A stretch of DNA of 64,000 nt, from positions 24,475 through 88,474 of the forward strand of contig CATJHO010000145.1 in NCBI GenBank assembly GCA_949740535.1. Reading direction: 5' to 3'. Of the stretch, positions 2,412 through 56,164 are shown piece after piece. A program made the translations under genes and the position numbers. This DNA comes from an uncultured Lachnospiraceae bacterium. Its GTDB lineage: Bacteria; Bacillota; Clostridia; Lachnospirales; Lachnospiraceae. Below the pieces are notes generated by a model, which did no database searches, was not told the origin of the DNA, and was given only the letters and a program-made list of their open reading frames with translations. Numbering within the stretch: position 1 is the first letter of the stretch; each line of letters starts with the position of its first letter.

Positions 2412-3263
2412 ATGAAAAAATTTGTTAAGACACTTGTTACATCTGCGCTGATCCTTGCGCTGGCAGGAGCTTTGACGGCCTGTGGGAAAAGCGGCGGCCT
2501 GACCATTGCCGTTCCCAATGATACCACCAATGAGGCGAGGGCTCTGCTGCTTTTGGAAGAACAGGGATATATTACCCTGAAGGAAGGGGCAGGTATTACC
2601 GCGACGATTCAGGATATTCAGGACAATCCTTACAAGATTACCTTCAAAGAGGTGGAAGCGGCTCAGCTTCCCAATGTGCTGCAGGATGTGGATTATGCAG
2701 TTATTAACTCCAACTATGCCATTGAGGCTGACTTAAATCCCATGACAGACGCCCTGGCCATTGAGGGATCTTCCTCTGCATACAGCAATATTCTGGCAGT
2801 CAGAGAAGGGAATGAGAGCTCAGACGCCATCAAAGCCCTGACAGCAGCTCTGGAGAGCCAGAAGGTGGCAGAGTTCATTGCAGGAACGTATGAGGGAGCC
2901 GTTGTGAGTACAGTGGACAATCCCACTGACGGCACCGATGCGTCTGTAGATTATGCAGCTTTAGCAGGGACTACGATTTCCGTGGCAGCATCTCCCACTC
3001 CCCACGCAGAAATTCTGAAGGTTGCTCAGGAGATTCTGGAAGAGCAGGGCATTACCCTGAAGATCATTGAGTATACTGACTATGTTCAGCCCAACAATGT
3101 GGTGGAGAGCGGGGAATTAGACGCCAACTACTTCCAGCATACCCCCTATCTGGATGATTTCAATGCGGAGAACGGAACCCATCTGGTATCTGCTTCTGCC
3201 ATCCATGTAGAGCCCATTGGTCTTTACGGCGGAAAACAGACCAGCCTGGATGCCATTAAATAA
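2412..3263 (+). CDS. metQ: MetQ/NlpA family methionine ABC transporter substrate-binding lipoprotein
   Basis: Lipobox LTACG; SPTPHAEIL...VQPNNVVESGELDANYFQHTPYL typical of the MetQ family; followed by metN and metI. Confidence 0.92.
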   Translation: MKKFVKTLVTSALILALAGALTACGKSGGLTIAVPNDTTNEARALLLLEEQGYITLKEGAGITATIQDIQDNPYKITFKEVEAAQLPNVLQDVDYAVINSNYAIEADLNPMTDALAIEGSSSAYSNILAVREGNESSDAIKALTAALESQKVAEFIAGTYEGAVVSTVDNPTDGTDASVDYAALAGTTISVAASPTPHAEILKVAQEILEEQGITLKIIEYTDYVQPNNVVESGELDANYFQHTPYLDDFNAENGTHLVSASAIHVEPIGLYGGKQTSLDAIK

Positions 3264-3337
3264 ACGTAAATACATACATAAGAAGGACGGACTGCCGGCA
3301 GAAGCTGTGCCGGCGCTCCCCCTTGTCCGGAGGTTAT

Positions 3338-50225: not shown

Positions 50226-53200
50226 ATGTATTTAAAAAGTATTGAGGTGCAGGGATTTAAATCTTTTGCAAATAAAATTGTTTTTGATTTTCATAACGGA
50301 ATTACCGGCATTGTGGGCCCAAATGGCAGCGGCAAGAGCAATGTGGCGGACGCCGTGCGCTGGGTGTTAGGGGAACAGCGGGTGAAGCAGCTTCGGGGCG
50401 GCAGTATGCAGGATGTGATTTTTTCAGGCACCGAGAGCCGCAGACCCTTAAGCTACGCCTATGTTGCCATTACCCTGGATAATGGAGATCATCAGCTGGC
50501 CATTGATTACGAGGAGGTAACGGTGTCACGCCGCCTCTACCGTTCCGGCGAAAGCGAATACCTCATCAATGGAACAGCCTGCCGGCTTAAAGATATCAAT
50601 GAGCTCTTTTATGATACAGGAATCGGAAAAGAAGGGTATTCCATCATCGGCCAGGGACAGATTGACCGGATTCTGAGCCATAAGCCGGAGGAGTCCAGAG
50701 AGCTTTTTGACGAAGCTACCGGAATTGTAAAGTTTAAGCGCAGAAAGAACACAGCCCAGAAAAAGCTGGAGGATGAGAAGCAGAATATTCTGCGTATCAA
50801 TGATATTCTTTCCGAGCTGGAGAAGCAGCTGGGCCCTCTGGAGCGCCAGTCGGAAACAGCGAAGGCTTATTTGAAGAAAAAAGAGACATTAAAGATTTAT
50901 GATGTGAATATGTTTCTTTTAGAGACTGCCCGTCTTCAGGAACAGCTGGATGAGGTGGAGAAGAAGTCGAAAACTGCCCAGGAAGAGCTGGAAGAGACTA
51001 CAAGAGCCTACGAGGGGATTAAACAGGAGCATGCAAAGATTGAGGAAGAGCTGGAAGATCTGAACCGGGATCTGGATGAAACGAAGGAATCCTTTGCCCA
51101 GGCAGGCATGAGCCGCCAGCAGCTGGAAGGGCAGATTGAGCTTCTGAAGGAGCAGATTCATTCGGTCCGGGCTAACGATGAGCATCTGCAGGGCCGTCTG
51201 TCCACCATCGGTACAGATGTGCTGGAGAAAAAAGAGTCCAGAAAGAAGCTCACAGAAGAGCAGAAACGGCTGGATACCCAGCTGAAGGAGATTTCCAGCC
51301 GTTCCAGGGAGGCGTCAGAGAGGCTCAATCAGGTCCGCAGACAGATGGAAGCCCTGAACAGCCGGGTGGAACAGCAGAAAAACGCAATTATCAGTCTCTT
51401 AAATGAGCGGGCTTCTACCAAGGGAAGGCTGCAGCGTTATGATGCCATGCAGGAACAGGCTCAGATTCGAAGAGCCGAGCTTAACAAGAAGCTTTTGGAG
51501 GCCAGAAGCAGCGAGGCGGAACAGAAACGTCTTTATGAGGAGTATGCGGGAAAGCTTCAAACCATTGAGACAGCAATCCTGGATCTCACAGCGGCCCAGA
51601 GAGAGAAAGAGGAGGAGGCGGAGAGCTGCCGAAGGACTCTGGGAAAGCTCAATGAGCAGCTGGAGATTGGACAGACAGCCTTCCATCGGGAATCTTCCAA
51701 ACTGGAATCTCTGCGGAATCTGGCAGAGCGCTACGACGGCTATGGAAACAGCATCCGTAAGGTTATGGAACGTCGGGAACAGACGCCGGGAATCTTGGGG
51801 GTAGTGGCAGATATCATCAAAGTAGAGCAGAAGTATGAAACAGCCATTGAGACAGCTTTAGGAGGCAATATCCAGAATATTGTTACGGATAACGAGGAAA
51901 CAGCCAAGGAACTGATTCACTATCTGAAGAAACATAAGCTGGGCCGGGCGACCTTTCTTCCGCTGACTGCAGTGGGAGGAAGGGATAACTTTCCAAAAAA
52001 GGAAGCCTTAAAAGAAGCAGGTGCATTGGGACTTGCAAGTACATTGGTGCAGGCAGAAGCCAGATATGAAGGTGTTGTCCAGTATCTTCTGGGCAGAGTT
52101 CTGGTGGTGGAAAGCATTGATGCAGCCATTAAAATTGCCCGTAAATACAGTCATTCCCTACATATTGTTACCCTGGAAGGAGAATACTTAAGTCCCGGAG
52201 GCTCTATGACGGGCGGCGCATTCCGCAATTCGAGCAATCTGCTGGGCCGCCGCCGGGAACTGGAAGAGCTGGAAGAAAATGTAAAAAAACTGGAGGAAGA
52301 GATGACAGCAGCCCGTCTGCGCATTGAGGAAGTGAAAGATCAGCGCCGCCGTTTCCGTCAGGAAGCAGAGGAGCTGAACAGCCGCCTGCAGGAACAGTAT
52401 CTCCTTGAGAATACCGTGCAGCTGAACGCAGAACAGGCGAAGACCCGGCTGCAGGAACTGGCTTCCGGTTACGCAGGGCTGACTGCCGAGCTTTCCCAGC
52501 TGGAGGAACAGCTTCAGGATATCAGCCAGAACCGCGCAGCCATCGGCCAGGAGCTGAAAGTCTCCGAAGAGCAGGAAGAGGCTCATGAAAGGGATACCTT
52601 AGAGGCCCAGAAGGAACTGGAAGGAATCCGCCTGGAAGAAGAAAAAAGCGTGCAGGAATGTGAGGGCATTCATCTGGAAGTGGCTGCTATCACCCAGAAG
52701 GTAGAGTTTGTCAATGAAAATGTGGCGCGGATTGACCGGGAGCTGGAGCGCTTCCGTATGGAGGAGGAAACGCTTAAGGCAGGTGTAGTACAGGGCAGCC
52801 GTGATATTCAGGCCAAAGAAGAGGGAATCCTGGCCCTGACGGGTCAGATAGAACAGCTGAATGTAAGAAGCCGGACCCTGGAGCAGAGGACGAAGGACCT
52901 GGCTGAAAAGCGTGAAAATCTTTTAAGCGGCCAGAAAGAGTTCTTTGCCCGCCGGGAAGAGCTTTCCGAGCACCGCAGCCGTCTGGACAAAGAGGCGTTC
53001 CGTCTGAACAGTCAGAGAGAGCGCCTGGAAGAAAGTGCAGAGGCCCAGGCGGATTATATGTGGCAGGAATATGAGCTTACCTACAATTCGGCCCTTCCTC
53101 TGCAAAATAAGGCGTACACGGAGCTGGGAGAGCTGAAAAAGCAGATTTCGGCTTTGAAAGAAGAGATTCGTAAGCTGGGGGATGTGAATGTAAATGCCAT

Positions 53201-53783
53201 AGAGGATTTCAAAAATGTCTCCGAGCGTTATGAATTTATGAACAATCAGCGGAATGATCTGGTGAAAGCGGAAGAAACTCTGAAAGGAATTATAGCAGAG
53301 CTGGATTCCGGTATGCGCCGTCAGTTCAAAGAGCAGTTTGAGCGGATCCGTGTGGAGTTTGACAAAGCCTTCAAGGAGCTCTTCGGCGGCGGAAAGGGAA
53401 CCCTGGAGCTGAATGAAGAGGAGGATATCCTGGAGGCGGGAATCCGGATTATCGCCCAGCCGCCGGGAAAGAAGCTGCAGAATATGATGCAGCTCTCCGG
53501 AGGAGAGAAAGCCCTGACAGCCATTTCACTGCTCTTTGCTATTCAGAACCTTAAGCCTTCGCCTTTCTGTCTGCTGGATGAGATTGAAGCGGCTTTGGAT
53601 GATTCCAATGTGGGACGTTTCTCAAAATATCTTCACAAGTTGACAAAAAATACACAGTTTATTATTATTACTCATAGGAAGGGAACTATGGAGGCGGCAG
53701 ACCGCCTGTATGGCATCACCATGCAGGAAAAAGGCGTATCGGCCCTTGTTTCCGTAAACCTGATAGAAGAAGATTTGACTTAA
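50226..53783 (+). CDS. smc: Chromosome segregation protein SMC
   Basis: [26 protein letters not shown]; hinge; [26 protein letters not shown]. Confidence 0.97.
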
Positions 53784-53800
53784 AATATAAGTTCTAACAC

Positions 53801-54143
53801 TGCGGAACTGGAAGTGTTTAAACAGCAGTCCCCGAAGCATGCCCCAGATAAATTTACAGACGGCTCTTAACGGCTGGGAATTTATCTCCACCAAGGGCAG
53901 GCGCAGGGGCTGCGGAACTGGAATAAATAAAACAGCAGTGCTCAGAAGATTCACAGAAGGATTTACGGACGGTATTGAACGGCCGGAAATTCTTCTGTAA
54001 CAGGGTGGATCGAGGAGCACTGCGGAACTGGAATAAATAAAACAGCAGTGCTCAGAAGATTCACAGAAGGATTTACGGACGGCATTGAACGGCCGGAAAT
54101 TCTTCTATAACAGGGTGGATCGAGGAGCACTGCGGAACTGGAA
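53801..54143 (+). repeat. Tandem array of three 110-bp units bounded by 13-mer TGCGGAACTGGAA; candidate structured RNA
   Basis: 13-mer at 53801, 53911, 54021 and 54131 (exact 110-bp period); units 2 and 3 differ at 2 positions; unit 1 diverged in sequence but keeps the same two-stem fold. Confidence 0.9.
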
Positions 54144-54157
54144 TAGGAGGAATAGGG

Positions 54158-55087
54158 ATGTCGGAAGAGAAAAAAGGATTTTTCAGCAGGCTGGTATCCG
54201 GCCTGGCCAAAACACGAGAAAATATTGTTGCCGGAATCGATAGTATTTTCAGCGGATTTTCGGCGATTGATGATGATTTTTATGAAGAGATAGAAGAACT
54301 TCTGATAATGGGAGATATCGGTATCAACGCCACCAATGCCATAATTCAGGATTTAAAGGCGAAGGTAAAGGAGCAGAAGCTGAAGGAACCTTCCCAGTGC
54401 AAGGAGCTTCTTATTGCAGGGATTAAGGAGCAGATGCAGGTGGGAGAAGTGGCCTATCGATTTGAGGAAGAAAAGTCGGTGGTTCTGGTGATTGGGGTTA
54501 ACGGTGTGGGCAAGACCACTTCCGTAGGCAAGCTTGCAGGGAAACTAAAAGATCAGGGCAAAAAGGTAGTTCTGGCGGCGGCAGATACCTTCCGGGCGGC
54601 AGCGGGAGAACAGCTGACTGAGTGGGCTTCCCGTGCAGGTGTGGATATTATCAGCGGCTGTGAGGGGGCAGATCCGGCATCCGTGGTCTATGACGCCGTC
54701 TGCGCGGCCAAGGCCCGCCATGCGGACGTGCTGCTCTGTGATACAGCGGGAAGACTGCACAACAAGAAAAACCTCATGGAGGAACTGCGGAAAATCAACC
54801 GCATTATTGATCGGGAGTATCCGGATGCCTACCGGGAGACACTGGTGGTTCTGGATGGAACTACAGGACAAAATGCGCTGGAGCAGGCACGGCAGTTTAA
54901 AAGTGTGGTGGATATTACGGGAATTATCCTGACCAAGCTTGACGGTACGGCCAAAGGCGGGATTGCAGTGGCGATTCAGTCGGAGATGGGAATTCCGGTG
55001 AAGTATGTGGGTGTTGGAGAGAGTATTGATGATCTGCAGAAGTTTAAGGCGGATGAGTTTGTGAATGCTTTGTTTCATCAGGCATAG
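54158..55087 (+). CDS. ftsY: Signal recognition particle receptor FtsY
   Basis: GVNGVGKTTSVGKLAGKL; AADTFRAAAGEQL; DTAGRLHNKKNLM; TKLDGTAKGG. Confidence 0.96.
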   Translation: MSEEKKGFFSRLVSGLAKTRENIVAGIDSIFSGFSAIDDDFYEEIEELLIMGDIGINATNAIIQDLKAKVKEQKLKEPSQCKELLIAGIKEQMQVGEVAYRFEEEKSVVLVIGVNGVGKTTSVGKLAGKLKDQGKKVVLAAADTFRAAAGEQLTEWASRAGVDIISGCEGADPASVVYDAVCAAKARHADVLLCDTAGRLHNKKNLMEELRKINRIIDREYPDAYRETLVVLDGTTGQNALEQARQFKSVVDITGIILTKLDGTAKGGIAVAIQSEMGIPVKYVGVGESIDDLQKFKADEFVNALFHQA

Positions 55088-55476: not shown

Positions 55477-55592
55477 TGCGGAACTGGAAACAGGAGCGTG
55501 GTGAATGGTGCCAGAAGGATTTCCGGACTTATGTTTAAGAGGCCGGAAATGCTTCTAGATAAGGGTACCATAAATGAGCTTCGGAACTGGAA
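55477..55592 (+). repeat. Isolated fourth copy of the 110-bp-family structured unit
   Basis: TGCGGAACTGGAA (55477-55489) ... AGAAGGATTTCCGG / CCGGAAATGCTTCT stem ... TTCGGAACTGGAA (55580-55592), then RBS and ATG. Confidence 0.8.
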
Positions 55593-55606: not shown

Positions 55607-56164
55607 ATGTCAGATTTTTTTGATGAAACGATTATGAGAGATACTTTGGAGAAGTACATACCTGCCGGGGAAACAATGCTGGCAGGCATACATGCAATTG
55701 CAAAGGAAACAAGTGTGATCGGCATATTTGAGAAATGCATCCGCACAGAAAACAGTCTGATTCCCGATGAAAATGGCGGAACAGTGGCATTAAACAAGAA
55801 AAAATTTTCTGCCTACGATATTTACCTTGCGATAACGCAGTCGTCTCTGGTAATTACCGAGTGTGAAAAATACAGCTATTTCTATCAATTTAAAGACGAT
55901 CCGGTTGTGAGTGAATCAGAGATACAAAAGCTTCCGGCAGAGCTTTCTCTGGATGATATTGGAACATGTTATCCCCTGACGGACATTCAAACATGCGATA
56001 TAAAAAAGGGATGGATGGGCTCTGTAAAATGCCACATAAAAATGAAAAACGGAAGTTATTTCAAGCTCCTGCTTCCAAAGCTGGGCGGTCTGGGCGGAGA
56101 CATGCCCCATCACACGAAGTACCGGGAGGCCATTATTGCCCGGCTGGGCGGAGGGAGTGTTTAA
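55607..56164 (+). CDS. Hypothetical protein
   Basis: 185-aa ORF; ATG 55607 preceded by gaaagga; no family recognised with confidence. Confidence 0.7.
   Translation: MSDFFDETIMRDTLEKYIPAGETMLAGIHAIAKETSVIGIFEKCIRTENSLIPDENGGTVALNKKKFSAYDIYLAITQSSLVITECEKYSYFYQFKDDPVVSESEIQKLPAELSLDDIGTCYPLTDIQTCDIKKGWMGSVKCHIKMKNGSYFKLLLPKLGGLGGDMPHHTKYREAIIARLGGGSV

Follow-up and report, generated by a model that had tools for sequence, protein, structure and literature searches.

Interspersed repeats of bacteria usually lie 3' of genes, occur in either orientation or are pieces of transposons. BOX elements are modular, with tandem boxB units, and the MIRU of mycobacteria are described as containing small ORFs overlapping the stop and start codons on either side. 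REP, BIME and REPIN repeats are imperfect palindromes, often present in more than 100 copies per genome, which are probably transcribed and possibly mobilised in trans (PMC3116915, PMC3733652). The REPs are 20–40 bp long, carry a GTAG or CGTC tag and tend to lie 3' of coding regions and in the gaps between unidirectional and convergent genes (PMC3733652). The gap between senX3 and regX3 is occupied by MIRU units of 77 bp and 53 bp in varying number, to which separate expression of regX3 is attributed (PMC4213456). BOX, RUP, ERIC, NEMIS and similar elements are short dispersed intergenic repeats present in tens to hundreds of copies, many with predicted RNA folds (PMC2267715).

The array between smc and ftsY analysed here, which lies in a window of 64,000 nt (the whole stretch of DNA that was studied) from an uncultured Lachnospiraceae bacterium, is just one site of an undescribed hairpin family, family 1. 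It resembles the REP/BIME/REPIN repeats and their RAYT (TnpA_REP) system in being an interspersed imperfect palindrome of high copy number. REP dimers, however, are found in both orientations and mainly 3' of genes, whereas family 1 units, which form head-to-tail arrays, are ~103 nt long with three helices and lie only 5' of start codons (83/84 evaluable terminal units). Family 1 lacks a short palindrome tagged GTAG or CGTC and has an AACAG foot and a CGGAACTGGAA tail. Like the MIRU, it places short tandem units in the gap between co-directional operon genes (77/87 arrays; 13/88 are multi-unit). Unlike the MIRU, it has no fixed reading frame and always has a Shine–Dalgarno sequence (SD) between unit and start codon; the MIRU, set apart from family 1 by their description, belong to another phylum, the carriers found here being Lachnospiraceae/Clostridia. 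We know of no conserved three-helix RNA in the MIRU. BOX, RUP, ERIC and NEMIS are likewise dispersed, short, intergenic and foldable, and were compared with family 1 through Rfam and their descriptions; to our knowledge none follows a strict SD-abutting, sense-only rule. The literature searched contained neither the 13-mer TGCGGAACTGGAA nor a description of interspersed intercistronic SD repeats like family 1.

Architecture of the smc–ftsY array

The features of the array and of a second one downstream are listed below, all on the + strand; full units were scored with a covariance model (CM), and remnants, stem and tail were assigned from the letters themselves.

50226–53783, +, smc (predicted from SMC-type motifs and the name given in the original prediction), ORF of 1185 aa, co-directional, upstream
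53801–53813, +, 13-mer TGCGGAACTGGAA, left over from the 3' end of an eroded unit, ahead of unit 1
53821–53923, +, unit 1, hairpin and tail, divergent version, 87.8 bits
53931–54033, +, unit 2, 104.9 bits
54041–54143, +, unit 3, 103.9 bits
54045–54053 and 54125–54133, +, outer stem of unit 3, GCAGTGCTC paired with GAGCACTGC
54133–54143, +, tail of unit 3, CGGAACTGGAA
54144–54150, +, SD of ftsY (TAGGAGG), directly 3' of the tail, an arrangement repeated genome-wide
54158–55087, +, ftsY, the downstream gene, ORF of 309 aa
55477–55489, +, 13-mer 3' remnant ahead of the second array in the window (G000:C145:79951-79963)
55489–55592, +, fourth unit in the window, 76.8 bits

The array begins 17 nt after the smc stop codon, and its position between this stop codon and the ribosome binding site (RBS) of ftsY suggests that it is transcribed. 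The original prediction had placed the 13-mer at 53801, 53911, 54021 and 54131 with a period of 110 nt, as is indeed the case, and had described three exact units. This description is too strong: identity is 98% between units 2 and 3, with the two differences already reported, but only 62% between unit 1 and either of them (its wide divergence had also been recognized), and Tandem Repeats Finder gives 2.1 copies. All three units nevertheless fit one fold in the covariance model, in agreement with the claim of a shared structure. The proposed outer and inner stems of the 'two-stem' RNA both stand, but a third, middle helix lies between them (GATTCAC/GTGGATC in units 2 and 3). The last unit had been said to end 2–3 nt before the RBS, and the analysis supports that it abuts it, the tail ending at 54143 and the SD starting at 54144. 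The fourth unit, absent from the original prediction, ends 14 nt 5' of the ATG at 55607 (a 185-aa ORF ending at 56164). With scores of 77–105 bits the four window units are not chance matches; units 1–3 were among the training sequences of the model and the fourth was not.

Each unit is one long imperfect hairpin of ~103 nt, with outer, middle and inner helices and a conserved tail. Above an A-rich foot (AACAG) stands a variable outer stem, followed by a variable middle stem with a bulge of 6–8 nt on its 3' side and a near-constant inner stem (AGAAGGATTTaCGGaCG ... CGgCCGgAAATnCTTCT), after which the tail CGGAACTGGAA is unpaired. Sequence is most constant in the AACAG foot, in the inner helix and in the tail; stem sequences vary widely between copies with pairing retained, and unit length varies, so that no reading frame is fixed. 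The mean folding z-score against dinucleotide shuffles is −5.4 (69 copies). Predicted accessibility of the tail is 0.65 beside the real hairpin and 0.55 beside shuffled ones. That of the SD is no better beside the real hairpin (0.57 vs 0.55), and a role of the hairpin as an SD-opening device was rejected because of this equality. Tail and apical loop were also inspected by eye for a pseudoknot, and this idea was discarded, since complementarity occurs in single copies only.

In every unit the inner helix (e.g. window 54070–54106) has two A·G mismatches, 3 bp apart, on either side of CGG/CCG; the apical one is G·A in some copies (e.g. loci L050, L047 and L060), so that it appears to swap sides. 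In arrays with a 5' remnant (e.g. 3100–3266 of locus L035) the 5' arm of the unit could bind the 3' arm of the upstream remnant in place of its own, over 13 nt in L035, and this pairing is a possible two-state switch.

Copy number and distribution

The 13-mer TGCGGAACTGGAA has 87 exact matches in the host genome (141 with at most one mismatch) and its reversed control has none. A search with the covariance model, built from 45 units, gave 103 full-length or near full-length copies and one extra partial antisense match that corresponds to the palindromic part. These searches of the host genome with 13-mer and model were the check suggested at the outset, and they do not support a feature specific to smc–ftsY: family 1 makes up ~88 arrays with at least 102 units in this genome, and at the smc–ftsY junction sister species have no unit or have one with very different stems. 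Regulation specific to smc–ftsY was ruled out on the same genome-wide distribution. Nor do they support tandem arrangement as the essence of the feature, because 75/88 arrays have one full unit and 13/88 have two or three.

Among the 16 species sampled in the genus, seven besides the host carry 44–145 copies and eight carry 0–4. Family 1 is found in four of 200 sampled Lachnospiraceae genera, that of the host included, and in an order-level sample of 295 genomes it occurs in the host genome only. Records with tail and SD come from Lachnospiraceae/Clostridia isolates and MAGs (among them 1XD8-76, 1XD21-13, D16-50, IMSAGC_002 and Acetatifactor). The units had been thought not to belong to a known Rfam family, and Rfam 15 indeed gave no match at gathering scores for the whole window, none at E up to 5 for 53700–54200, and none for the sister-species loci. 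Among 2.9 million viral contigs a single 19-mer match was obtained, inside a long ORF and on the opposite strand; it was taken as chance and phage carriage was rejected. Y1 transposase, reverse transcriptase and IS630-type transposase were each considered as mobiliser and set aside, none of them tracking with family 1.

Units are mostly placed directly 5' of Shine–Dalgarno sequences

The 102 host units comprise 83 that precede a start codon, 15 that precede another unit and four others, of which three are at the ends of contigs or fetched stretches and one (L293) is unplaced. On the sense strand, 83 of 84 evaluable terminal units end 9–41 nt (median 14) 5' of a start codon, and a consensus SD starts within 6 nt of the tail in 69 units. 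Upstream, a co-directional gene ends within 160 nt of 77/87 arrays, in places only 0–2 nt from the unit. The units from other species and genera divide into 81 before a start codon, 28 in tandem, five with neither and one at an edge; their loci were partly found with a pattern that contains the SD, which biases this count, with the loci of genomes G028, G212 and G223 free of that bias, and in at least two of the five cases with neither the next unit opens with ATCAG and was missed by the script. The downstream genes, judged from sequence, are diverse (proA, mutS, gyrA/parC-like, glmS, trpS, leuD, lon, ftsY and others), and a dedicated regulon is therefore unlikely. From other genera, 4/68 downstream proteins match the host set at a loose threshold.

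Pairing is maintained by compensatory change

A plain MAFFT alignment of 45 units, not fitted to any structure, contains 18 pairs changed on both sides and 137 double-changed cells, compared with 57 in shuffled alignments and 33–64 when the partner is slid. In the 102-unit alignment, which leans toward the covariance model, 92% of cells are paired and there are 435 double changes vs 140 in shuffles. Comparison of nearest-neighbour copies gives 16 double changes in the inner helix, all of them (16/16) compensating, where 2.0 would be expected by chance. The covariation is thus well above controls, as the original prediction of a selected structured RNA had anticipated.

In DNA, too, G·T (G·U in RNA) is the mildest mismatch. 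In the units G·U exceeds A·C by 144:53 (28:9 on the unfitted alignment), where mutation alone would give approximately equal numbers and a mutation bias of the transcribed strand could add to the excess; the excess therefore indicates that the sense strand is constrained.

Turnover at orthologous junctions

The ftsY orthologues are 89–95% identical in 15/15 other genomes of the genus, and the smc–ftsY junction itself varies. It holds three units in the host (G000), one in G013, G012, G006 and G011, with stems quite different yet paired, a remnant in G005 and none recognizable in G002 or the non-carriers. The gyrA junction is empty in G012 (ATATAATAGGAGAAG) and has a unit in G000 and G005; in G011 it shows the tail alone, and in G013 it holds an unrelated hairpin. 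At leuD the non-carriers G010 and G015 have GGATTATAGGAGG, G000 and G011 a unit and G013 a solo tail. Similar mixed states are found across species at the atpB, trpS, mutS, aspS, rsmE and mrp junctions. Presence/absence polymorphism at orthologous sites, a feature of MITE-type elements, is therefore seen at, for example, ftsY, gyrA, leuD and atpB. These comparisons fit insertion between stop codon and SD, with TA^GGAG as a frequent site; a TA target duplication is possible, the TA target being confounded with stop codons.

A 3' remnant opens about half of the arrays, and in ~20/48 cases its arm equals that of the adjacent unit at 13–16 of 16 positions, a pattern that suggests duplication in local tandem and subsequent erosion from the 5' end. 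The best dispersed pair in the host genome is 90% identical (median 81%). As there is no near-identical dispersed pair, family 1 appears not to have moved recently in the host; with no dispersed pair above 90% and pairing kept, the fold seems to have been upheld at many loci once the units had inserted, and this speaks for an effect on the host message.

A second hairpin family at the same kind of site

The unrelated hairpin at gyrA of G013 recurs as GGTAAAGTCGCAAAGGC..., ending with CTTTAGTGCTGTCGCGCAGCGACTTAnA and followed by TAGGAGG and ATG; its form is GGTAAAGTCGCAAAGG... ...GTCGCGCAGCGACTTAnA-TAGGAGG-ATG (loci L302, L318, L323, L325, L377, L389, L392 and L396–L407). It precedes an SD and start codon in 17/17 evaluable copies, and three more precede another unit. 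Seven species of the genus, all of which also carry family 1, have 6–120 matches per genome, and the host genome has no match. The fold includes a bulge like that of family 1, 7 nt long and likewise on the 3' side, and no Rfam match was obtained for this family. At many loci its copies hardly differ from one another, which indicates recent spread, and such recent spread makes the placement rule look more like targeting than slow sorting.

Other repeats were observed at or near the loci examined. Just after position 315 (+) of host locus L293 is TCGTCCGGTTAAGAAATGTAAAGTGTTAATAAGAAATAC, which resembles the sequence 5' of second-family copies (CCGGTTAAGAAATGTCAA..., ilvD of G012) and, on this resemblance, is a possible second-family relic. 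Further inverted repeats, also long (GGGGCTGCTGCAAAATAAGGCGGCAG...CTGCCGCCTTATTTTGCAGCAGCCCC and GGGGGTTGCTGCAAAATACGGCAG..., which looks related to it), are present at L245, L248, L249 and L250 (3' of ftsY), at L028 and at the U32-peptidase loci L372–L375, in positions common to several species. In three sister species an intergenic tandem repeat of ~50 bp per unit (AAGGAAACACCCTACGGGCATCCCTTTATGCACAAAAACCATGTGCAAATT) lies 5' of rsuA-like genes (L342, L343 and L344) and ends at the RBS of these genes.

Discussion

Family 1 is probably a set of non-autonomous mobile hairpins that are inserted or retained only 5' of the SD and whose fold is kept in the mRNA. The units would have spread as a non-autonomous mobile element, for which the target, or the only site tolerated, would be the boundary 5' of the SD, in the typical case TA^GGAG; local tandem duplication and then erosion would have followed insertion. 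In the mRNA the hairpin would fold out of the path and so bring the upstream stop codon near to the SD. Tail and SD may be left reachable, so that downstream translation would tolerate, or be tuned by, the insertion. The diversity of the downstream genes, the upkeep of the fold and the accessibility of the tail favour a mobile hairpin folded out of the mRNA between stop codon and SD, a last step that we infer. More tentatively, two or more hairpin families, unrelated but sharing hosts, may home to the RBS through strand- and position-specific insertion 5' of the SD (TA^GGAG) by a DNA- or RNA-guided enzyme, each folding out of the mRNA so that translation of the operon continues.

The strict 5' placement on the sense strand, the conserved inner helix and tail, and the pairing still kept in old copies would also be expected of a cis-regulatory leader through which one protein, small RNA or ligand controls the translation of a global regulon of ~90 genes. 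We regard such a leader as unlikely: the downstream genes have no common theme and are hardly shared with other genera, half of the genus lacks family 1 despite having the same genes, and an unrelated second hairpin takes its place at the same sites. Pairing maintained locus by locus, a flush fit between stop codon and SD, and the tandem duplication and erosion seen could also come from an intercistronic stability or processing hairpin (an RNase barrier or substrate) selected purely by the host and spread by recombination rather than transposition. To this we give little credence, because orthologous operon junctions are empty in close relatives and the second family is near-identical at many loci, as after recent spread.

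High copy number, a hairpin and patchy distribution are also shared with REP/REPIN-type DNA repeats, in which a single-stranded DNA hairpin would be kept for a Y1 (HUH) transposase, with the RNA fold as a by-product; a strand-specific target would account for the orientation. This too seems improbable. No Y1 transposase was found in G004, which has 44 copies, or in the host G000, an 84% complete genome with 103 copies, whereas the non-carriers G001, G007 and G015 each have one; the tagged short palindrome is lacking and REP placement relative to genes differs (PMC3733652); and the G·U excess favours RNA, though with the caveat on DNA mismatches given above. A functionless local tandem duplication at smc–ftsY, which units 2 and 3 taken by themselves resemble as a simple recent event, has virtually no probability left and is refuted by the 102 or more divergent copies of a single genome, which show compensatory changes and obey one placement rule.

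Two or more hairpin families thus sit where a bacterial message is most sensitive, in the gap between stop codon and RBS, family 1 at ~90 sites in one genome and always in the sense orientation. Either a mobile element recognizes the RBS, or operon junctions tolerate this fold alone. Family 1 also offers a clean natural data set of compensatory RNA evolution inside single genomes.
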